From a virus, in IMG/VR virus record IMGVR_UViG_3300032326_000646, positions 1 to 57,781 of that record: a stretch of DNA of 57,781 nt. One strand, given 5' to 3'. The position numbers and the translations under genes are program-made. This document shows positions 5,701 to 22,893 of this stretch, in pieces. The notes beneath the pieces are model-generated. The model was not told the origin of the DNA. It searched no databases and saw nothing but the letters and a program-made list of their open reading frames with translations. The stretch's first letter is position 1, and each line of letters begins with the position of its first letter.

Positions 5701-6432
5701 ATGGCAGTTTCTAAATCTATGGATTTCCCAGGTGCAAAAAAATCTTCATATGCTGCACAGGTAGAACAAAGTCAGGCATCTCCTTCTACAGATAATGCTC
5801 TTTCATTTCTTCCAGTCCCTGGTCCAGTAGGACCACAGGGACCTGCAGGCAGAGACGGGAAGGATGGAAAAGAAGGACCTGAAGGACCAGAAGGACAAAA
5901 AGGACCAAGAGGAGAAAAAGGACAACCTGGACAAAACGGACTAAGTTCTTTATCATCTTCAGGACAGCAAGCAGGTTGGGCTTCATATACAAATGCTATT
6001 GAAAAACCAACAAAACTTGGAATCTCTCAGGGAGATGATGGTTGGGTAACACTTTTATTGGACACAAAAGATAAAGTACAAAATGAAAAATATCTTCCTA
6101 AAGGATGTACCAGCCTTTGGAACAGCCATCAAAGAGCCTTAAACTTTCACGGAATAAAAGAAGGTTCTCAAATATTCGTAACATATAACTTTGAACTAAC
6201 TACTTATACAGCCAACACCGAGGTATGGCTAAGAACATATTTTGCAAGTAAAGATCAAGAGTTTGTCCAATTAGTAGGATCTTTAAAGTACCAAAATGTA
6301 TACAATCTTTCAGTAACTCAAAACATATTCATTGAGGATAAGATTATGTGGGGTACTGGAGCAGTTCCTCAAATTAGAACAGATTTTGATGCATCTGTAA
6401 TTCTTAATTCTGTCTACGTCAGCGTGGTATAA
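5701..6432 (+). CDS. Collagen-like tail fibre protein, 243 aa
   Basis: Residues about 40-80 form an uninterrupted Gly-x-y repeat (PVGPQGPAGRDGKDGKEG, then GPEGQKGPRGEKGQPGQNG), which can trimerise as a triple helix. The flanks are a Ser/Ala-rich N-terminus and a globular C-terminal domain with many Tyr, Trp and Asn residues that looks like a beta-sandwich head. Lys or Pro at the Y position is where eukaryotic collagens are hydroxylated, which matters because oxygenase-like genes follow downstream. Own leaderless promoter; TAA at 6430-6432 is part of the next -10 box. Confidence 0.8.
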   Translation: MAVSKSMDFPGAKKSSYAAQVEQSQASPSTDNALSFLPVPGPVGPQGPAGRDGKDGKEGPEGPEGQKGPRGEKGQPGQNGLSSLSSSGQQAGWASYTNAIEKPTKLGISQGDDGWVTLLLDTKDKVQNEKYLPKGCTSLWNSHQRALNFHGIKEGSQIFVTYNFELTTYTANTEVWLRTYFASKDQEFVQLVGSLKYQNVYNLSVTQNIFIEDKIMWGTGAVPQIRTDFDASVILNSVYVSVV

Positions 6433-7834: not shown

Positions 7835-9298
7835 GTGGCAGCAGAAAATATTGATAATACCGTCAATGGTACTGGGCTATTCCCTACAAAAGTTCCTGGT
7901 CTTTCAGATGCAGCAGATATTCAGGCAGCACTAAGACTATATCATTATGGATCATACACCTATGATGGCTCCAACACCAACAAAGCAAATCTTGTAACAC
8001 CTTCTATTGCTAAACACCTGCAAAATCTTGCTGATGCAGATGCAGCAGAGATAGTAAATAGGAATACTGCTATTGCAAATGCAATTAGTACAGCAACAGG
8101 AGCATACTCAGACCTTGCTGGAAATGCTCTTGAATGGAATTCTGTTGATGAAAGATTTGATGTTGAGCCAAGAATTGCAAATACTGGAGTAGTTTTAACA
8201 AAAACAGCAAACTTTACTTTGTCTCCAAGCGATGTTGGTAAAACTATTCTTTTGTATTCTTCAGATCCTATGACTGTAACACTTCCAGCAAACAATTCAG
8301 TAGAAATTCCAGTAGGATACTCTGTTGATATAATTCAAACAGGTTCTGGATCAGTAACTGTTTCTGAAGGTAGTGTTGCTGTTTCAATTAATAGCAAATC
8401 TAACATAAAGTCTTTAGATGGTCAGTATTCAAAAGGAACTTTAGTCAAAATAGACACCAATACATGGTTTTTTTTTGGAAACTTACTTAACAGTGTAACA
8501 CCAACACCTACACCTGTAGCCCCTACACCAGTTGCACCTACCCCTGTAGCACCTACCCCTGTAGCACCTACCCCTGTAGCACCTACCCCTGTAGCACCTA
8601 CCCCTGTAGCACCTACTCCAGTTGCTCCAACACCTGTAGCACCTACACCAGTTTCTCCAACACCTACAGAAACAACAACATACTGGGCTACAGGTTGCTG
8701 TCTTGGAGCCACCACCAATCGTCAGGTAACTGGAACAAGTACTGAAAATGCTATTGCTGCTGGTGTCAATGTAATTAATGCTTGTAACGGTTCAGGAGAA
8801 AATCTTGGGACTGTTCAAGAAGGTTCGTATACAACAACTAACAACATACCTACTTTAACTTGTACAGCCCCTCCTACACCTGTAGGACCAACAGTTTATG
8901 ATATCTATACTTATTGTGATCCAATATTTCCTGCCATGAGAGGTGGAGCGTATGGAACCCAATCAGCAAGTTCAAGTGTTAATGTTGGAACAACAACTAA
9001 TGCATCCTTAACTAGTGAGCAGATAGTCGCTCTCCTTGGTTATGGATCTGGTTGTCCGACAGTTCCTACCCCTGTAGCACCTACCCCTGTAGCACCTACC
9101 CCTGTAGCACCTACCCCTGTAGCACCTACTCCAGTTGCTCCAACACCTGTAGCACCTACTCCAACTGCTCCTGTTCCAACTCCAGGCGGTGGATGTGTAC
9201 CAGGAGAACTTTGTTACTCTGAATTTGATGGAAGTTGTATTAGTATTTGGACATATAACTCATCTTGTGGATGTGTATTCTCTAGTAGAGTATGCTAA
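7835..9298 (+). CDS. Repeat-rich fibre with Ala-Pro-Thr-Pro-Val tracts, 487 aa
   Basis: GTG start with the ribosome binding site AAGGGTGA. Residues 1-225 form an N-terminal fibre domain (YDGSNTNKANLVTPSIAKHL, then a Thr/Val beta region). Next come a tract of about ten APTPV units, a Cys-containing domain (YWATGCCLGATTNRQVTG, then CNGSGENLG), a second Cys-containing domain (YDIYTYCDPIFPAMRGGAYG), a second APTPV tract, and a C-terminal Cys-rich knob (GGGCVPGELCYSEFDGSC). The Pro tracts should be extended stalks. AP/TP/VP repeats resemble substrates of prolyl hydroxylation and O-glycosylation in extracellular proteins, and oxygenase and glycosyltransferase genes follow directly. Confidence 0.8.
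   Translation: MAAENIDNTVNGTGLFPTKVPGLSDAADIQAALRLYHYGSYTYDGSNTNKANLVTPSIAKHLQNLADADAAEIVNRNTAIANAISTATGAYSDLAGNALEWNSVDERFDVEPRIANTGVVLTKTANFTLSPSDVGKTILLYSSDPMTVTLPANNSVEIPVGYSVDIIQTGSGSVTVSEGSVAVSINSKSNIKSLDGQYSKGTLVKIDTNTWFFFGNLLNSVTPTPTPVAPTPVAPTPVAPTPVAPTPVAPTPVAPTPVAPTPVAPTPVAPTPVSPTPTETTTYWATGCCLGATTNRQVTGTSTENAIAAGVNVINACNGSGENLGTVQEGSYTTTNNIPTLTCTAPPTPVGPTVYDIYTYCDPIFPAMRGGAYGTQSASSSVNVGTTTNASLTSEQIVALLGYGSGCPTVPTPVAPTPVAPTPVAPTPVAPTPVAPTPVAPTPTAPVPTPGGGCVPGELCYSEFDGSCISIWTYNSSCGCVFSSRVC
8516..8660 (+). repeat. 15-bp tandem repeat coding APTPV, tract 1
   Basis: The unit GCACCTACCCCTGTA is repeated without interruption in the middle of the tract, with synonymous variants (CCAACACCTGTA, CCAGTTGCT) at both ends. 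The identical central units suggest recent expansion by slippage or recombination. Confidence 0.8.
9060..9170 (+). repeat. 15-bp tandem repeat coding APTPV, tract 2
   Basis: The same unit as tract 1 and the same order of variant units at its 3' end, about 0.4 kb downstream. The two tracts are long direct repeats of each other, so recombination between them would delete the Cys-containing domains. Confidence 0.8.
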
Positions 9299-9804: not shown

Positions 9805-10404
9805 ATGATAAAAGAAGAAATTGCTCCAGGAATAGTTGTTTACAGCAATGTCATTCCTAATAGTGAAAATCTATATAAAGATATAGAAGAGGGTTTAGTT
9901 TCAGCAAACCTTGAATGGCAACAGGCATCAGTTAAAGAAATAGATACTCCAAAGGTAAATACAAACACAAGAGATACGCATACTTTTGGTGTTGACTATT
10001 TGGGTAAAGTTGATGATAGCACTCCATTAAGTCTATCTGAGTTTTTCTTGTTAAGTCTTAATAATATTTTTTTTAAAAGTTTTGATCCAGTAGAAAAAGA
10101 CTACATGGCATCATATGCAATGTTTGCTGACTCTCATGACTCATATGGAATTTTAAAATACGGCAAAGGTCAAAAATTTACAAATCATATAGATGATCAT
10201 AAAGACTACCATAGAAGAGTTTCTACAGTTTATTATTTAAATGATAATTATAAAGGTGGAGAAATAAATTTTCCAAGATTTAATATAAAATTTAAACCAA
10301 AAGCAAATCAAATGATCATATTTCCATCAACATATGTTTATAATCATTCTGTAAGTGAAGTTACCGAAGGATTTAGATATGCTGTAGTTAGTTGGATGAA
10401 ATAA
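9805..10404 (+). CDS. 2-oxoglutarate/Fe(II)-dependent oxygenase-like protein, 199 aa
   Basis: The double-stranded beta-helix signature is clear: H128-x-D130 in KFTNHIDDHKDYHRR, then VSTVYYLNDNYKGGEINFP, the distal H181 in YVYNHSVSEV, and R191 as the 2-oxoglutarate ligand in EGFRYAVVSW. The GGEINFP strand is typical of prolyl-4-hydroxylase-like members. Such enzymes hydroxylate protein or small-molecule substrates with oxygen and 2-oxoglutarate. The adjacent fibre with Pro-rich tracts and the collagen-like fibre are attractive substrates, but this is inferred from position. The stop overlaps the next start (TAATG). Confidence 0.85.
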   Translation: MIKEEIAPGIVVYSNVIPNSENLYKDIEEGLVSANLEWQQASVKEIDTPKVNTNTRDTHTFGVDYLGKVDDSTPLSLSEFFLLSLNNIFFKSFDPVEKDYMASYAMFADSHDSYGILKYGKGQKFTNHIDDHKDYHRRVSTVYYLNDNYKGGEINFPRFNIKFKPKANQMIIFPSTYVYNHSVSEVTEGFRYAVVSWMK

Positions 10405-11219
10405 TGAAAAATGCTATAGTCTATTCTATCAATGCAGTTGGAGAAAAATTTGAAAATTCTGTTAGATTTAGACAGTTGCTTTATTCTGTTTCAAGACTTA
10501 GGAGATTTAATAAAAATATAGATATCTATGCATATGTTTCAGATAAAGATTTTTTTTTGAATACAGAGAAATATAAAAATTTAAATATTATTTTTAAATA
10601 TTTTGAAATACCTATATATAATATATCAAATACTCATTACAGCAAATCAAACAATGCAGAAAAACTTTGGCATAGATGGTCAAACACTTTTGAAGTTTTA
10701 AAAAGTTCAGAATACGATAATGTTCTTTATATTGATACCGATACTGTTTTTTATAATGACCCAGAAATATTATTTTCAATTTACGGAAACACAAACTCTA
10801 TATACACTAAAGAAGACAATTGTTATGAGATTATGAACTCTTTGGGTGTAGATAAAAATGGGCTTAATGCTGGGCAGGTTTTGTTTAGTAAATCTTTGTT
10901 GTTTTCAGAATCTGGAATGTTTGAGTTTATGGATAACTATATAGACTTAAAATTAAAAGAAATAAGAACAACGATGCCAACAGAAATGTATCACCAGACC
11001 ATATGGGTTATTGATCAGTATGCTCTTTATGAATATTATAAATCTATAGATATTCCAGTTAAAATTTATGATAAAAAACATGTTATGTTGCACTTAGAGC
11101 CTTGGATAAATGAAACATCTGAATTAGTTTTACATCATTATTTAAATAGAAATTATAAGGTTGCAGTCCCAGCAGAGTTTGCTTATGATAATATCTTAGA
11201 AAGGATATTTCAAAAATGA
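10404..11219 (+). CDS. Glycosyltransferase-like protein with DxD motif, 271 aa
   Basis: The start at 10404 overlaps the preceding stop (TAATG); an in-frame ATG at 10392 lies inside the oxygenase gene. The N-terminal region MKNAIVYSINAVGEKFENSV and the motif NVLYIDTDTVFYNDPE (D111-x-D113) fit a GT-A fold nucleotide-sugar transferase, closest in look to family-8-type enzymes; LNAGQVLFSKSLL is a typical acceptor-side strand. It is flanked by two oxygenase-like genes, so a hydroxylate-then-glycosylate pathway on fibre protein is a reasonable hypothesis. The DNA is notably more AT-rich than the fibre genes. Donor and acceptor are unknown. Confidence 0.8.
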   Translation: MKNAIVYSINAVGEKFENSVRFRQLLYSVSRLRRFNKNIDIYAYVSDKDFFLNTEKYKNLNIIFKYFEIPIYNISNTHYSKSNNAEKLWHRWSNTFEVLKSSEYDNVLYIDTDTVFYNDPEILFSIYGNTNSIYTKEDNCYEIMNSLGVDKNGLNAGQVLFSKSLLFSESGMFEFMDNYIDLKLKEIRTTMPTEMYHQTIWVIDQYALYEYYKSIDIPVKIYDKKHVMLHLEPWINETSELVLHHYLNRNYKVAVPAEFAYDNILERIFQK

Positions 11220-11749
11220 AAGAATTTAAAGATTTTTTGCCAATTGATTTAGCAAAAAAATATTATAACTTTGGACTAGATGTTGTATCTGGTAGGTCTG
11301 GACTAAATTCTGTTTGGACAAACCAGGCTTGGGATAAAGGAATAGTAGAGGATAGTTCTGTAGTAGTGTGTATTAGACTTCCAGATGAGTTTTTACCTCA
11401 ACTACAATCAATTCTTGAGGATAAATTAATATTCGATAAAAATAGAGATATGCCATTAATCAGTTCAAGATCTGCAATGGTTTATGTTTGGTCAAAAGAC
11501 TCCTACATTCCAGTTCACTCAGACGGTGTATATAGTAGAGCCATTACTGTGTATTTAAATGAAACCTGGCAATATAATGATGGAGGAATGTTTAACTGGC
11601 TTGATCCAGAAAAGAATGAATGGAAAAACATTGAGCCAACATTTAATAAGGCCGTTATAAATGATTCAGGGTATTCCCATGGAATAACACCTGTAAAGTC
11701 ATCTAATAATAGAATAACCTTACAGGTGTTTTTAAGTCCGCTTACTTAG
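11216..11749 (+). CDS. Second 2-oxoglutarate/Fe(II)-dependent oxygenase-like protein, 177 aa
   Basis: ATGA overlap with the glycosyltransferase gene. H101-x-D103 in SYIPVHSDGVYSR, then AITVYLNETWQYNDGGMFNW, the distal H155 in SGYSHGITPV and R166 in NNRITLQVFL complete the metal and 2-oxoglutarate site. It is shorter than the first oxygenase and not closely similar to it outside the motifs, so it probably has a different substrate. The last 8 bp overlap the convergent lysozyme-like gene. Confidence 0.8.
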   Translation: MKEFKDFLPIDLAKKYYNFGLDVVSGRSGLNSVWTNQAWDKGIVEDSSVVVCIRLPDEFLPQLQSILEDKLIFDKNRDMPLISSRSAMVYVWSKDSYIPVHSDGVYSRAITVYLNETWQYNDGGMFNWLDPEKNEWKNIEPTFNKAVINDSGYSHGITPVKSSNNRITLQVFLSPLT

Positions 11750-16285: not shown

Positions 16286-17863
16286 ATGGCAACAAGAATG
16301 CAACAGCGCAGAGGAACTGCAGCACAATGGACGGCTGCAAACCCAGTATTGGCAGCAGGTGAAATTGGTTTTGAAACAGATACAAATAAGTTTAAGATGG
16401 GTAATGGTTCCTCAGCATGGTCTGCATTGACATACTTTGCTAACGCAGCAGAACTAGCAGCCATTATTGATGGCGCACCATTAGCGCTTGATACTCTTAA
16501 TGAGTTAGCAGCAGCACTTGGTGACGACCCAAACTTCCTAACATCATTAGCAACAAATGCAAGAGTTGATCAAATAGTCCTTAATGGGCAATCAGTAACT
16601 ACTCAAGCAATTACTAAGGCAGAGTCAGAACTTTTAAGCCATGCACAAGACGAAACAAATATTCATGGAATTGCAAACACAGCAGATCTTGCAACAAAGA
16701 CATATGCAGAAGGCGCTGCAGATGCTGCAGTAGATGCTGCAATAGCAGCACTAACAAAGTCTTCAGTAGGTCTATCAAACGTAGACGATACACAAGATGC
16801 TTTTAAGCCAGTTTCAGCAGCACAGGCTTCCGCAATTGCTACAGCAAAAACTGAGGCTATTACAGCAGCAGGCCAAGCAGCAGATACTAAGATTTCAGAT
16901 CATAATACTGATGAAACAAATGTACATGGTATTCCAGATACATCTGTTCTCGTAACACAAACAGAACTTACAAATGCTATTGCAGGTGTAACAGTGGATC
17001 AGTCAGAACTTGCTGGAACAGGTCTTCTATGGGATGGTGTTAATGAGCAATTTACTATTGACACAACAGTTGCAACTAAGACATATGCAGATAGCGCTGT
17101 TTCAACTCACAATGATGAAACCACATCTGTTCACGGTATTTCAGATACAGCACAACTAGCATATAAGAATGCAGCAAATCAAACATTTACAGGAAATCTA
17201 GAAGTTGACGGAAACCTTGTTGTTGATGGAGACATCACAGTTAATGGTGGAAGTTTTAACGCATCAGCAACATCTATCACAATCGAAGATAATATGGTTC
17301 AACTTGCTCACCAGAATGCAGCAAACACTGTAGACCTTGGTCTTGTGGTTGCATATACAGAAGGCGTAGTTGGAAAGCATTCGGGTATCGTAAGAGACGT
17401 ATCTGATGATAAGTGGAAGTTGTTTAAGGGTGTAACAACAGAACCTTCAACAACTGTAGACTTTACTCAGGGATCATTTGATGATCTTAAGGTTGCAGCA
17501 CTTGAGGCAACAACAGTAACCCCATCTTCTGGTATCGTATTCTCAGACGGTACACAGACAAAGTTGGGAGTTCCATCTGTAACAACATTTGCAACAGCAA
17601 TCTCATCATCTGCAACATTAGCAGCAGGAGAAGCAGACAAGTTTGTTCCACTAACTGGAGCAGTTACAATCACACTTCCTGCAACAGGATACTCAACTGG
17701 ACAGTCAATTGACTTCTATCAGGAATCAGGCACAGGAGCACAATTTGCCTCAACAAATAGCGTTGTCGGTACACCAGGTTTGAAGTTTAGAACTACAAAC
17801 TCAGTAGTAACAGCAATGAAGACTTCAAGTGGATGGTTGGTCTTCGGAGACCTATCAGCATAA
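16286..17863 (+). CDS. Tail fibre with Mtd-like N-terminal domain, 525 aa
   Basis: RMQQRRGTAAQWTAANPVLA followed by AGEIGFETDTNKFKMGNGSS is the N-terminal signature of major-tropism-determinant-type and many aquatic phage fibres. Then APLALDTLNELAAALGDDPN, repeats of DETNIHGI, DETNVHGI and ETTSVHGI (three related units), LEVDGNLVVDGDITVNGG shaft strands and a C-terminal Ser/Thr-rich head (GAVTITLPATGYSTGQSIDF) complete the fibre. Receptor recognition is expected. No reverse transcriptase or variable repeat is visible in the window. Confidence 0.85.
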   Translation: MATRMQQRRGTAAQWTAANPVLAAGEIGFETDTNKFKMGNGSSAWSALTYFANAAELAAIIDGAPLALDTLNELAAALGDDPNFLTSLATNARVDQIVLNGQSVTTQAITKAESELLSHAQDETNIHGIANTADLATKTYAEGAADAAVDAAIAALTKSSVGLSNVDDTQDAFKPVSAAQASAIATAKTEAITAAGQAADTKISDHNTDETNVHGIPDTSVLVTQTELTNAIAGVTVDQSELAGTGLLWDGVNEQFTIDTTVATKTYADSAVSTHNDETTSVHGISDTAQLAYKNAANQTFTGNLEVDGNLVVDGDITVNGGSFNASATSITIEDNMVQLAHQNAANTVDLGLVVAYTEGVVGKHSGIVRDVSDDKWKLFKGVTTEPSTTVDFTQGSFDDLKVAALEATTVTPSSGIVFSDGTQTKLGVPSVTTFATAISSSATLAAGEADKFVPLTGAVTITLPATGYSTGQSIDFYQESGTGAQFASTNSVVGTPGLKFRTTNSVVTAMKTSSGWLVFGDLSA

Positions 17864-17887: not shown

Positions 17888-19096
17888 ATGTCAAAGCAAG
17901 CAGGTAGAATGAGTCAAGGAGCAAACGACTTTTTGGCTCCAGGAACACCAACAATAACATCAGTAACAGATGTTGGAACAAACAGAGCATACAATAATGG
18001 TGCAGTAGATGTAGCATTCAATCCAACAGGCGTATATTCAGCATCATCTTATACGGTTCTATCTAGTAGCGGACAAACTGTTACTGGATCTTCTTCCCCT
18101 ATTCGTGTAGAAAATCTTTTGTCTGCAACAGCCTATACATTTACAGTTAAGGCTGCAAATGATGGCGGTGAGTCTGCATATTCTTCAGCCTCATCCCCAG
18201 TTACTGTAACAACTGTTCCAGCAACACCTTCAGCACCATCAGCATCTTCTCCATCAGCAGGAACAGACAGCGTTTCTTGGAGCGCACCAGCAAATGGTGG
18301 AAAAGCAATTACTAATTATCGTTGGTCATCATCAGATGGAAAGGCTGGGGACACCTCTGGTCTCTCAGCAAGTGTTGGCCAAGAGCAGGGAACTGCACAA
18401 ACATACAACGTATATGCTACAAATGCTAACGGAAACTCAGCCACATCTCCTGCATCAGGATCTGTCACTACGGTATTCTCTGCATTCGGTGCCTTCGGTG
18501 CTTTTGGAGCCTTTAGTGCATTCGGTGCCTTCGGTGCTTTTGGAGCCTTTAGTGCATTCGGTGCTTTTGGAGCCTTTAGTGCCTTCGGTGCTTTTGGAGC
18601 CTTCGGTGCTTATAACAAGTCTATAAGCATGCACACATTAGTTCTAACTACACAAGGATTTACACAAGCCTCAAATCTTCAGGTAGGAGATCAACTTGTT
18701 TCTACAGAAGTTCCTGGATTGGGAATTGATTTTACAATGCAAGATATTCAAAACTGGACAGGAAATCCATCAGAACTTCAAATGGTTCCTGATAAAGTTA
18801 CAACAATTAGACACATCGGGTCTTCACAAGCAGAACAGGCTGTTTCTATTAACGGAGAATTCTATTCAGGATCTCACTATATGCTAGTAAAGAGAGATGG
18901 CATTTCTAGAATGATTGCAAGTAGAGACCTTTTGACTACAGACGAATTATGGTCTTCAGACATAAATACTTGGACTCCTATAGTTGAGTTAACAATTTCA
19001 GATATTCCTCATGAGGTTATATCTATCAACTGTGAACCTTATGACATGTTCTATACAGATCATTTCTTGGTTTACGACGGTTATCAAACAGAATAG
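17888..19096 (+). CDS. Fibronectin-III / FGA-repeat / Hint-like fibre, 402 aa
   Basis: AAGGGG lies about six bases before the ATG. Residues 15-195 hold two fibronectin type III-like domains (SSYTVLSSSGQTVTGSSSPI, then SVSWSAPANGGKAITNYRW). Residues about 198-240 are (F-G/S-A) tripeptides. Residues 240-402 look like a Hint (hedgehog/intein) domain: KSISMHTLVLTTQGF (N-terminal block, Ser in place of Cys), LQVGDQLVS, SGSHYMLVKRDG (His of block B), and EVISINCEPYDMFYTDHFLV (C-terminal block). The usual C-terminal His-Asn is replaced by Tyr-Asp, so full splicing is unlikely; N-terminal cleavage or a purely structural role is possible. Confidence 0.75.
   Translation: MSKQAGRMSQGANDFLAPGTPTITSVTDVGTNRAYNNGAVDVAFNPTGVYSASSYTVLSSSGQTVTGSSSPIRVENLLSATAYTFTVKAANDGGESAYSSASSPVTVTTVPATPSAPSASSPSAGTDSVSWSAPANGGKAITNYRWSSSDGKAGDTSGLSASVGQEQGTAQTYNVYATNANGNSATSPASGSVTTVFSAFGAFGAFGAFSAFGAFGAFGAFSAFGAFGAFSAFGAFGAFGAYNKSISMHTLVLTTQGFTQASNLQVGDQLVSTEVPGLGIDFTMQDIQNWTGNPSELQMVPDKVTTIRHIGSSQAEQAVSINGEFYSGSHYMLVKRDGISRMIASRDLLTTDELWSSDINTWTPIVELTISDIPHEVISINCEPYDMFYTDHFLVYDGYQTE
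18478..18612 (+). repeat. 9-bp-period repeat coding (FGA/FSA)n
   Basis: Units such as TTCGGTGCC, TTTGGAGCC and TTTAGTGCA alternate. A 36-bp block occurs twice, followed by a shortened 27-bp version, so copy number is probably variable. Confidence 0.8.
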
Positions 19097-19104
19097 AAAT
19101 ATCT

Positions 19105-19611
19105 GTGCTTGAACTTGTAGACACTTCGGGTATTAAAAACCTTGAATATCCAAAAGAACTTTCTGGAGCCTGGGTTTACTATGTTTTTTTTAAAAATCAT
19201 AAAAATTTAGGTGGAATAGTTTGTGCTTATTTTAATGATAAGTATCCAAGCGGGTCTGTTTATGTAGGAGATCAAATACTAAATGATTATCCCGATGTTT
19301 ACGGTACATGGAAAAAAGATGATGAGTTTAACAAAGTTGTTATGGATAGGGTTGCGGTTTCCCCAATTCTTAGGAATAAAGGTATTGGAAGAGCGGCAGT
19401 ATTTTATGGAGCAAAAGTTCTAGAGTCTTGTTTTAATAAAAAAGTTTCTCACGAGTATGGTTCTGAAATTGGAAATAGGCTTTATACATCTGCTTTTAGT
19501 GTTGATATTGTTGAAGATACATCTGTAGAAAATTCAATAGACTTAAAAGAAGATCTTTTTTATCAGCCTATATACCCGTATATATTTTTTGGCAGAAGGG
19601 TTTCAAAATGA
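19105..19611 (+). CDS. GNAT-type acetyltransferase-like protein, 168 aa
   Basis: GTG start eight bases after the fibre stop; no strong ribosome binding site, so re-initiation is likely. VMDRVAVSPILRNKGIGRAA contains the V-x-P-x-x-R-x-K-G-I-G acetyl-CoA loop (motif A) of GNAT enzymes, followed by helix VFYGAKVLESCF. The N-terminal half and the C-terminal 50 residues are not typical. It could acetylate a sugar or an amine on the fibre or in the host. AT-rich, and located just after a repeat-type fibre, as in the cassette after module A. Confidence 0.7.
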   Translation: MLELVDTSGIKNLEYPKELSGAWVYYVFFKNHKNLGGIVCAYFNDKYPSGSVYVGDQILNDYPDVYGTWKKDDEFNKVVMDRVAVSPILRNKGIGRAAVFYGAKVLESCFNKKVSHEYGSEIGNRLYTSAFSVDIVEDTSVENSIDLKEDLFYQPIYPYIFFGRRVSK

Positions 19612-20024
19612 TTAGTTATAACGTTAGTAATATAAATGAAAACATTTTAAATTCAATAATTCATCAAGTAAAGTTTATGTGCAAAGAAAATAATATAAAT
19701 TATGAAAAACAAAAGTATAACCTTTTATTTTCTAATGAAAAAGTATTTTATAAAAACAATGATGTAAAATTTACTTCTGGAATGAAAAAATACTTATGTT
19801 TTTATGGAAAAATATATTTAAATAAAAAAGAAATAATTGTTGAAAAAATACATTCAGAAAATGACTTATTTGTTTTTACTCCAGAAAGTAATGATATTCT
19901 AATAATCTCTGGAGGCATAGATAATTCAACAATAGTAAAAGATGATGAAGAGTTGTTGCATTTTTATGTTGCCCCAAGCCATTTACTTGAGTTACAAGAT
20001 CCAAAATTGTGGCAAAGACTTTAA
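19608..20024 (+). CDS. Unrecognised protein, 138 aa
   Basis: ATGA overlap with the GNAT-like gene. Strongly AT-rich DNA; the protein is rich in Asn, Lys and Ile. The C-terminal part, DILIISGGIDNSTIVKDDEE followed by LLHFYVAPSHLLELQDP, looks like the last strands of a small beta-barrel, perhaps a degenerate cupin or oxygenase fold, but no metal triad can be assigned. Its role is unknown; context suggests a partner of the GNAT-like enzyme. Confidence 0.55.
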   Translation: MISYNVSNINENILNSIIHQVKFMCKENNINYEKQKYNLLFSNEKVFYKNNDVKFTSGMKKYLCFYGKIYLNKKEIIVEKIHSENDLFVFTPESNDILIISGGIDNSTIVKDDEELLHFYVAPSHLLELQDPKLWQRL

Positions 20025-20026
20025 TA

Positions 20027-20035
20027 TGATATAAT
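20027..20035 (+). promoter_or_regulatory. Extended -10 box with short leader
   Basis: TGATATAAT 20 bases before the ATG at 20056; GAAAGG in the leader is the ribosome binding site. Confidence 0.55.
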
Positions 20036-20055
20036 TAAAATAACGAAAGGCTTAT

Positions 20056-20769
20056 ATGAATACTCTAAGATTCTTACAAATGTATCCACAATTGCTAAAT
20101 ATTGTTCCAGAGCCAGAACCAGGAACAAAAAATATTCCTTCTTGGTATAAAGAGCAGCCAGCCATTGCAGGAAGTGATATTCCTGATAGAGGAGTCATGA
20201 GGCTTACTGTAAAGAAGTGTCAGGCATTTTTTGATGCAATGGCAATGGGATATATATTAAAAGTTCCATGCGATATATATATAGACACTACTGATGGCAA
20301 TATCAATATTCAACTTCCTGCCAGTATGAACAAATTCTATTCTTTATTAATCAGCGAGCATTTAGAAGAGCAGGTATCTCATTTGCCCATAGACAAAGAC
20401 ATTTATTGTAACAAAATATTAAGAATTCATCCCACATGGATGGTTCAAACTGATAAAGGCTATAGCACATTCTTCACAAACCCAATACATCAAAGCCCGT
20501 CGCCACTAAAGGCTATTGACGCTGTAGTTGACACTGATAACTACTTTACTGATGGGCATCTTTCATTTTTAGTTAAAAAGAATTTTAAAGGAACTATAAA
20601 GCAAGGAACTCCCATGTTTCAGGTTTTTCCATTTAAAAGAGAAGATTGGACAATGGAAATAGATAAAAACTTTTCAGCAAAAAAAGTAGAAGAGCAAAGA
20701 AATAAGGTTAGATCTACTTTTCAAAATGGATATAGGCTTAAGTTTTGGCAAAAGAAAATCTTTAAGTAA
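20056..20769 (+). CDS. Conserved-looking phage protein of unknown function, 237 aa
   Basis: Contains PEPGTKNIPSWYKEQPAIAG, then CQAFFDAMAMGYILKVPCDI with YIDTTDGNINIQLP, and KFYSLLISEHLEEQVSHLP. In aquatic phages proteins with an 'IP-W-Y' start and a 'GY-I--P-DI' core occur near fibre and tailoring genes; I cannot name an activity. HxS and H pairs (HPTWMVQT, HQSPSPLKAI) are present but do not form a clear metal site. It closes the second accessory cassette and is followed by a terminator. Confidence 0.6.
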   Translation: MNTLRFLQMYPQLLNIVPEPEPGTKNIPSWYKEQPAIAGSDIPDRGVMRLTVKKCQAFFDAMAMGYILKVPCDIYIDTTDGNINIQLPASMNKFYSLLISEHLEEQVSHLPIDKDIYCNKILRIHPTWMVQTDKGYSTFFTNPIHQSPSPLKAIDAVVDTDNYFTDGHLSFLVKKNFKGTIKQGTPMFQVFPFKREDWTMEIDKNFSAKKVEEQRNKVRSTFQNGYRLKFWQKKIFK

Positions 20770-20859: not shown

Positions 20860-22893
20860 ATGTCAGATTTTTTTAGTTTTAAACTTCCAGAGGATTTTGT
20901 AGAAAAGTATAAAAACCAAGAAAGCCCATTTGGGTTTAAGGATGCAGCAGAAAATTCACTTGGAGAAATTACTTTTATACGTACTTATTCTCGAATGAAG
21001 GAAGATGGGACTAAAGAAAGATGGCATGAGGTTTGTCGTCGTGTAATCGAGGGTATGTATTCAGTACAAAAGAATCATGCTAAAGAAAACCGTTTGCCAT
21101 GGAATGACTACAAGGCTCAGAAGTCAGCACAAGAAGCATTCCAGAGAATGTTTGAATTAAAGTGGACACCACCAGGTCGAGGTATGTGGGCATTTGGAAC
21201 TCCTATGACTATGGAAAAAAAGAACTCAGCAGCACTACAAAACTGTGCAATGGTATCTACAAAAGATCTTGACAAGAATGATCCAGGAGCCTTGTTTGCT
21301 TGGGTTATGGATGCATTAATGCTTGGCATTGGTGTAGGGTTTGATACAGTGGGACAGGATAAGAATTTCTCAATCTATACCCCAACAGAACCAGAACAGG
21401 TATTTGAAATCCCAGACACTCGTGAAGGATGGGTAGAGTCAGTACGATTACTTATTAACTCCTACCTAAGACCAAACCAAAGTATTCAGAAGTTTAACTA
21501 TGATTTGATTAGACCTCTTGGAGCACCCATTAAGGGCTTTGGAGGGGTTGCATCAGGACCTGCACCTCTTATCAAGTTGCATGATCAGATAGACCGTGTA
21601 ATTGGCTCTAGAGGGGGTGAAACACTAGATTCTCGTGCTATCGTAGACCTAGTAAACCTTATTGGAACCTGTGTGGTATCAGGCAATGTTCGCAGATCGG
21701 CAACGCTTGCTTTGGGCACTGCAGGAGATGACACATTCATGAATCTAAAGAATTCAGAAATGTTTCCAGAACGCAATTCATTTGATCCAGAAAACCCAGG
21801 CTGGGCTTGGATGTCTAATAATTCTATTTCAGCAGAAGTAGGAACAAAGTACGAAGACTATGTGGATTTAATTACAGAAAATGGAGAGCCAGGTTTTATT
21901 TGGCTTGATGTTGCTCGTAATTATGGAAGACTAAAAGATGCGCCAGACGGTAAGGATTATCGTGTGATGGGATTTAACCCATGTGCGGAGCAGCCATTGG
22001 AATCATATGAACTATGTACACTTGTAGAAGTGCACTTGAATCGTCATGAGTCTAAGGAAGACTTCCTGCGTACCTTGAAGTTTGCATACCTTTATGGAAA
22101 GACTGTAACACTTGTTCCAACTCACTGGCCACAAACAAACGGTATCATGCAGCGCAACCGTCGTATTGGTACATCTCTTACTGGTATTGCGTCATTTGCA
22201 GATCAAAAGGGTTTGCCTATTGTTCGTGAGTGGATGGATGAAGGATACAATAAAATTCGTCACTATGACCACCAGTATTCAGAATGGCTTTGTGTTCGTG
22301 AATCAATTCGTGTAACAACAGTTAAGCCATCAGGATCAGTTTCAATACTTTCTGGTGCAACTCCTGGAGTTCACTGGGGTCCTGGAGGAAACTTCTTCCT
22401 TCGTGCAGTTAGATTTGGAAATACAGATCCAATGATGCACTTATTTAAAGCAGCAGGGTATACAATTGAAGATGACGTAGTATCAGCAAATACATCAGTA
22501 GTTTACTTCCCAATCAAGTCAGGCCATCCAAGATCTGAAAAAGATGTAACACTATTTGAAAAGATTGCACTTGCTGCAACTGCTCAAAAGTATTGGTCTG
22601 ATAATGGTGTTTCTGTAACACTTTCATTTGATAAGGAAACTGAGTCAAAGCATGTTGTTCCAGCACTACACATGTACGAAGGACAACTAAAGGCAGTATC
22701 ATTCCTACCAATGGGAAACACTGTTTACCCACAACAGCCATACACTCAGATTACTGAAGAAGAATATGAGTCGTATGTTGGTAAATTGAAGCACATTGAT
22801 TTTGCTGCTATTTATGATGGAGCAGAAAATCTTGAGGCTCAAGGAGAGATGTACTGCACTACAGACTACTGCGAAATTAAAGTAAACAAGTAG
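20860..22893 (+). CDS. nrdJ: Class II (B12-dependent) ribonucleoside-triphosphate reductase, 677 aa
   Basis: Reduces ribonucleotides to deoxyribonucleotides using adenosylcobalamin. The expected residues can be placed: C129 (ALQNCAMVS) and C386 as the redox pair, C375 as the thiyl-radical Cys and E377 within FNPCAEQPLESYELCTL, and the C-terminal shuttle pair C666/C671 (MYCTTDYCEI). The 11-residue spacing of the active-site cysteines and the 5-residue spacing of the C-terminal pair match the monomeric Lactobacillus-type enzyme (about 739 aa). The gene is a monocistronic unit with its own terminator-promoter boundary. It supplies dNTPs independently of oxygen, provided the host makes or imports cobalamin. 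No thioredoxin or glutaredoxin gene is nearby. Confidence 0.93.
   Translation: MSDFFSFKLPEDFVEKYKNQESPFGFKDAAENSLGEITFIRTYSRMKEDGTKERWHEVCRRVIEGMYSVQKNHAKENRLPWNDYKAQKSAQEAFQRMFELKWTPPGRGMWAFGTPMTMEKKNSAALQNCAMVSTKDLDKNDPGALFAWVMDALMLGIGVGFDTVGQDKNFSIYTPTEPEQVFEIPDTREGWVESVRLLINSYLRPNQSIQKFNYDLIRPLGAPIKGFGGVASGPAPLIKLHDQIDRVIGSRGGETLDSRAIVDLVNLIGTCVVSGNVRRSATLALGTAGDDTFMNLKNSEMFPERNSFDPENPGWAWMSNNSISAEVGTKYEDYVDLITENGEPGFIWLDVARNYGRLKDAPDGKDYRVMGFNPCAEQPLESYELCTLVEVHLNRHESKEDFLRTLKFAYLYGKTVTLVPTHWPQTNGIMQRNRRIGTSLTGIASFADQKGLPIVREWMDEGYNKIRHYDHQYSEWLCVRESIRVTTVKPSGSVSILSGATPGVHWGPGGNFFLRAVRFGNTDPMMHLFKAAGYTIEDDVVSANTSVVYFPIKSGHPRSEKDVTLFEKIALAATAQKYWSDNGVSVTLSFDKETESKHVVPALHMYEGQLKAVSFLPMGNTVYPQQPYTQITEEEYESYVGKLKHIDFAAIYDGAENLEAQGEMYCTTDYCEIKVNK

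Follow-up and report, generated by a model that had tools for sequence, protein, structure and literature searches.

A phage fibre capped by a Hint domain with an invariant N-terminal serine that may release its stalk

A viral DNA of 57,781 nucleotides (IMG/VR record IMGVR_UViG_3300032326_000646; the whole stretch is called the window here) encodes a repeat-stalked fibre protein whose C-terminal domain, judged by its predicted structure, we consider settled as a true Hint fold. Comparison with relatives indicates that this domain is a catalytic variant in which the residues of the N-terminal reaction have been held and those of the C-terminal reaction relaxed. The reading that we favour, to which we give slightly less than even chances on these alignments and models, is that the first Hint residue (Ser1) undergoes an N-O acyl shift followed by hydrolysis, which would release the fibronectin III (FN3)-stalk part of the fibre from a C-terminal Hint cap.

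Architecture of the fibre and its gene neighbourhood

The fibre gene is free of internal stops and its frame is intact. Its features and its neighbours are as follows.

16286..17863, + strand: upstream tail fibre with an Mtd_N domain, a conserved neighbour (Pfam Mtd_N 4.7e-15; synteny)
17888..19096, + strand: coding sequence of the FN3-FN3-stalk-Hint fibre protein (402 aa, ATG start)
17951..18211, + strand: FN3-like domain 1, residues 22-108 (Pfam fn3; AlphaFold2 strands and pLDDT)
18239..18472, + strand: FN3-like domain 2, residues 118-195 (AlphaFold2 beta-sandwich; BFVD matches)
18479..18613, + strand: F-[G/S]-A tandem-repeat stalk, residues 198-242 (TRF; low pLDDT)
18620..19078, + strand: Hint domain, S245-D397, followed by a 5-residue tail (AlphaFold2, Foldseek, profile and profile-profile matches)
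18620..18622, + strand: Ser245, Hint residue 1 and candidate nucleophile (invariant in relatives)
18866..18877, + strand: block B SGSH, with S327 (B:7) and H330 (B:10), counterpart of TxxH (conservation)
19022..19033, + strand: block F SINC, with S379 at F:4 and C382 at F:7 (HMMER against gp41-1; conservation)
19073..19078, + strand: Y396-D397 in place of the C-terminal His-Asn (alignment; conservation)
19105..19611, + strand: downstream GNAT-like acetyltransferase, a frequent neighbour (weak Pfam match, 0.0037; synteny)

The first-pass annotation had described two FN3-like domains, an FGA repeat stalk and a Hint-like C-terminus, and each of these parts was recovered. Pfam fn3 matches residues 53-103 above its curated cut-off (E 2.5e-6). 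The second FN3-like domain is without a Pfam match and is assigned from BFVD phage proteins that match at full length and are named 'Fibronectin type III', and from the full-length AlphaFold2 model, which contains two beta-sandwiches (22-108 and 118-195, pLDDT mostly about 85-95) and a C-terminal domain spanning 245-400. Between them and the Hint domain, TRF reports a tandem repeat at 18481-18611 (score 185) that corresponds to 15 low-complexity F-[G/S]-A triplets, and the model gives residues 199-243 no confident structure (pLDDT <50). A Pfam scan of the 402-residue fibre found no Peptidase_S74 intramolecular chaperone (Ser-Lys dyad).

The contig also carries portal, protease, tape measure and minor tail genes, with the Hint fibre lying in the tail-fibre block. 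Since the portal shares 49% identity with its counterpart in large Streptomyces phages, the host is likely actinobacterial. Downstream, the stretch 19105-20769 (+) holds the GNAT-like gene, a gene for a 138-residue protein and one for a phrog_7084 protein, and many relatives have these behind their Hint fibre. We did not accept the GNAT-like gene as an essential partner of the fibre; it is a frequent neighbour but is absent in several lineages. Elsewhere in the window there are a cytochrome P450 gene (379-1680, +; Pfam p450 E 3.9e-48, no PHROG match) and an adenosylcobalamin-dependent ribonucleotide reductase gene just below the NCBIfam RTPR cut-off (20860-22893, +). A 2OG-Fe(II) oxygenase, a GT8-like glycosyltransferase (weak match) and a second 2OG-Fe(II) oxygenase stand in a row at 9805-11749 (+), near a collagen-like fibre (5701-6432) and a PTPVA-repeat fibre (7835-9298), and are possibly a set for fibre hydroxylation and glycosylation. 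In relatives, similar oxygenases adjoin the Hint fibre.

The Hint fold, its relatives and its conserved residues

A Pfam scan with the single fibre sequence left the C-terminal domain unmatched, so the Hint domain is easily overlooked. The top match of a profile of 31 relatives was the bacterial intein-like domain 2lwy (2.1e-6), and a more diverse family profile matched 2lwy (4.4e-6) and the gp41-1 intein (1e-3). Structure prediction, suggested at first pass as a check, agrees: an AlphaFold2 model of the domain built from the 31-sequence alignment (pLDDT 90.1, pTM 0.83) matched in Foldseek the BIL2 domain (1.0e-6), the Ser1 cysteine-less intein 9hth (1.5e-6), the gp41-1 intein (9e-6, target TM 0.83), 2lwy and many inteins (1e-6 to 1e-4) and hedgehog (7e-4). 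Besides the fold, the domain has a residue accepted at Hint position 1 (Cys, Ser or Thr; here Ser) and a block B motif of the TxxH type (SGSH). PDB matches to Kelch proteins and an NS1A-binding protein were weak, covered a local W-motif only and were discarded.

Each family scan of IMG/VR contigs returned about 175-190 relatives, and more were reached via a distant member. Direct tblastn against annotated phage genomes gave no relatives with either the window protein or relative L026, none was confirmed in cellular genomes, and the present record contains neither a second Hint gene nor a Pfam intein family match. All members have the Hint domain at their end, with a tail of 2-16 residues (42 in one case), whereas the preceding stalk may be of FGA, FFPP, PFSPF, GHYGGF, NPGF, PPIIAS, PVIIAE or poly-Pro type and the N-terminus before it alternates between FN3 and PASTA. 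Because the stalk changes freely and the Hint domain always comes last, the constant element is the cap and not the stalk. Among relatives L002-L259, the stalks consist of unrelated short repeats, as if exchanged while the cap stays. Some phage contigs hold a pair of Hint fibres separated by about 12 kb (contigs of L237/L245 and of L242/L253).

HMMER aligns S-I-S-M-H-T (from S245) without gaps with C-L-D-L-K-T of gp41-1, the first two residues being placed by gap-free extension of the alignment, and pairs the family Asp, D397 in the window protein, with the Asn that ends gp41-1. The earlier observations that the Hint block opens with Ser and lacks the final His-Asn are confirmed by this mapping: S245 occupies the position of Cys1, and the terminal pair reads Tyr-Asp. 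Conservation was assessed over 95 distinct ORFs, from which 66 representatives below 90% identity were drawn (64 family members and two Cys1 cousins; mean pairwise identity 40%, minimum 17%). Ser occupies Hint residue 1 in 90/90 covering sequences, while the residues flanking it vary, and this invariance is not a selection artefact because no search seed contained Ser1. Of 64 Ser1 codons, 59 are TCN and five AGY; as no single base change leads from one codon family to the other and the way between them runs via another residue, Ser itself is under selection. The block-B His (B:10) is present in 94/94 sequences and Ser or Thr at B:7 in 91/94.

The C-terminal positions behave differently. The terminal residue (G:7) is Asp in 89 and Asn in six of the 95 ORFs, the penultimate one (G:6) varies among Tyr, Phe and His, and the +1 residue, which is Gly after D397, varies from relative to relative. 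The retention of Asp or Asn at G:7, together with the finding that Asp can stand in for Asn in some inteins (PMC4031507), would suit C-terminal clipping by Asp397 or an intein-like splicing reaction. We nonetheless think either very unlikely, given that five residues follow, that the penultimate His and the +1 residue are not kept, and that there is no C-extein worth joining.

In block F, nearly all relatives have Ser or Thr at F:4. Cys at F:7 (C382 here) is found in 94/95 sequences, a count to be discounted because the motif INCEPYD served as a search seed and its invariance is thereby inflated; for the same reason we dropped the motif as a sign of catalysis. Taken at face value, this conservation would favour class 3-type chemistry with Cys382 as nucleophile, which we regard as extremely unlikely and rejected on register. 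Class 3 inteins have Trp at B:12, Cys at F:4 and Thr at G:5, whereas the window domain has Met at B:12 and its Cys three residues after F:4, on the opposite strand face.

Possible chemistry of the cap

In the favoured reading, the fibre would be made with the Hint domain as its C-terminal cap. S245, aided by H330 and S327, would attack the K244-S245 peptide bond to give an ester (the N-O acyl shift), and hydrolysis of this ester during or after assembly would free the FN3-stalk part from the cap. The purpose that we infer, as we infer the acyl shift and the hydrolysis themselves, is stalk maturation. Because the C-terminal half of the reaction is relaxed and there is no C-extein, hydrolysis and loss of the cap would be the natural outcome, and both the variable penultimate position and the short tail fit loss of the C-terminal reaction. 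Other phage fibres shed C-terminal chaperone domains or caps, and the collagen C-propeptide offers a further analogy. The invariant Ser1 and block-B His support the view that the function conserved here is an N-O acyl shift at the N-terminus, and homologous Hints with the full Cys1, TxxH and His-Asn set, carried by collagen-stalk tail proteins of jumbo phages, also speak for cap release. As trypsin cuts after K244, tryptic peptides are blind to self-cleavage of this fibre.

The main doubt about activity lies in the loss of the F:4 Asp, present in most inteins and replaced here by Ser or Thr, and in the absence of the NX-motif His of working Ser1 inteins. The window has an Arg-His (TTIRHIG), but this His is not conserved in the alignment of relatives. 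The N-terminal ester shift put forward at first pass is partly supported: its nucleophile and block-B His are in place, and these two further residues are missing. Conservation of Ser1 and His could instead be structural, and it is a serious alternative, though a less likely one than cap release, that the domain is an inert Hint fold that has lost catalysis and acts as a folding, trimer-register or receptor-binding tip on an exchangeable stalk. Loss of the G:6 His in addition to the F:4 Asp and NX His, the swapping of stalks, the variation of surface positions and the usual role of a C-terminal fibre tip as the place of receptor binding would all suit an inert tip. Against it, exactly the residues of the N-terminal reaction (S1 and His B:10) are strictly invariant, with Ser retained across two codon families.

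The first-pass annotation had also likened the domain to hedgehog and suggested that the stalk might become attached to a nucleophile. The likeness holds for the layout, a C-terminal Hint domain with N-terminal chemistry only, and fails for family membership. A hedgehog-like transfer, in which an external nucleophile attacks the Ser1 ester and the stalk becomes covalently attached to a cell-wall or membrane group or to a neighbouring virion protein, would draw on this position and residue set; we consider it improbable, since the protein ends five residues after the Hint domain and has no sterol-recognition or acceptor-binding part, and transfer would have to precede hydrolysis. It seems to us a shade less probable again that these Ser/Asp Hints form a class specific to phages, in which the Ser1 ester moves the stalk to an outside nucleophile on the host surface or on another virion protein and so makes a covalently anchoring tip. 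With nothing pointing to a sterol-like acceptor or to attachment, self-anchoring is possible but unsupported, and it is simpler to suppose that the C-terminal domain is released.

If the domain does react, intein-type chemistry takes place at the fibre ends of a common phage group, with Ser standing for Cys and without the C-terminal half-reaction. In that case nature would offer a Hint family dedicated to oxyester chemistry at the N-terminus, which could serve the engineering of proteins where conditions are oxidising, and it would be clear why the same end domain sits on unrelated repeat stalks. Should the domain be inert, it would also be of interest as a Hint fold that is retained for its structure and whose reaction residues have stayed frozen. 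In the open-access literature searched, we found no description of phage fibres tipped by a Ser-type Hint domain.

Relation to known Hint systems

The best fold and profile matches are BIL domains (2lwy and Tetrahymena BIL2, 6y75), which likewise occur on surface-type proteins. BIL domains are defined by Cys1 and a His-Asn end without a +1 nucleophile; the window Hint has neither Cys1 nor His-Asn and sits at the C-terminus. Inteins are inserted between two exteins and end in His-Asn followed by Ser, Thr or Cys, whereas the window Hint ends in Tyr-Asp followed by Gly, with only five residues after it. With Ser1 cysteine-less inteins (Aes123 PolB1, 9hth, and PolB16) it has Ser1 and the block-B His in common, as well as the fold match noted above. 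Oxyester chemistry has precedent among Ser1 Hints, although Cys1-to-Ser changes usually kill inteins (PMC10189870), and working Ser1 inteins have an additional NX His and usually Asp at F:4 (PMC10189870, PMC4031507). The window Hint differs from them in lacking the F:4 Asp, a Ser/Thr+1 and insertion in a host protein; of the NX-motif His preceded by Arg or Lys that marks this group, it has only the unconserved Arg-His. The Hedgehog C-terminal autoprocessing domain is also a C-terminal Hint for which an N-terminal-only reaction is a plausible parallel, but it has Cys1 and a sterol-recognition region, neither of which is found here.

The same architecture as in the window protein is seen in three proteins of uncultured Caudovirales, A0A6J5NYB8 (Fibronectin type III; 42% identity over the whole length), A0A6J5MFV5 (Fibronectin type III) and A0A6J5NY54 (PASTA), whose names cite FN3 or PASTA only and not the Hint tip.

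C-terminal Hint domains with Cys1 occur on virion or tail proteins, most of them bearing collagen repeats, of cultured jumbo phages of Erwinia (Y3 gp110, annotated 'putative phage tail protein, contains intein domain'), Dickeya (AD1) and Yersinia (fHe-Yen9-02) and of phage NCTB, these proteins being phrog_38766-like, and also in a marine-type contig (L259). In phage NCTB, a free-standing Hint-like protein of 153 residues with a His-Asn end (L260:8420-8881) adjoins the Hint-tipped tail protein. Profile-profile comparison (hhalign) of the Ser1 family with these Cys1 phage Hints aligned 154 columns with E 6.7e-25, relative L131 linked to a jumbo-phage Hint by tblastn (5e-6), and in an unrooted tree the Ser type parted cleanly from the Cys type (support 1.0). 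In both groups a repeat-stalked virion or tail protein has its Hint domain at the very C-terminal end, with an EPYD-type block F and a short tail. In ten Cys1-type Hints the never-varying residues are C1, T at B:7, H at B:10, H at G:6 and N at G:7, so that Cys1, TxxH and His-Asn stand in 10/10, on collagen stalks; the window family has instead Ser1, [ST]xxH and [YFH]-D, with FN3 or PASTA domains and aromatic repeats. On these alignments, the window family is a variant of the C-terminal phage Hint in which Cys has become Ser, Asn has become Asp and the penultimate His has been let go.
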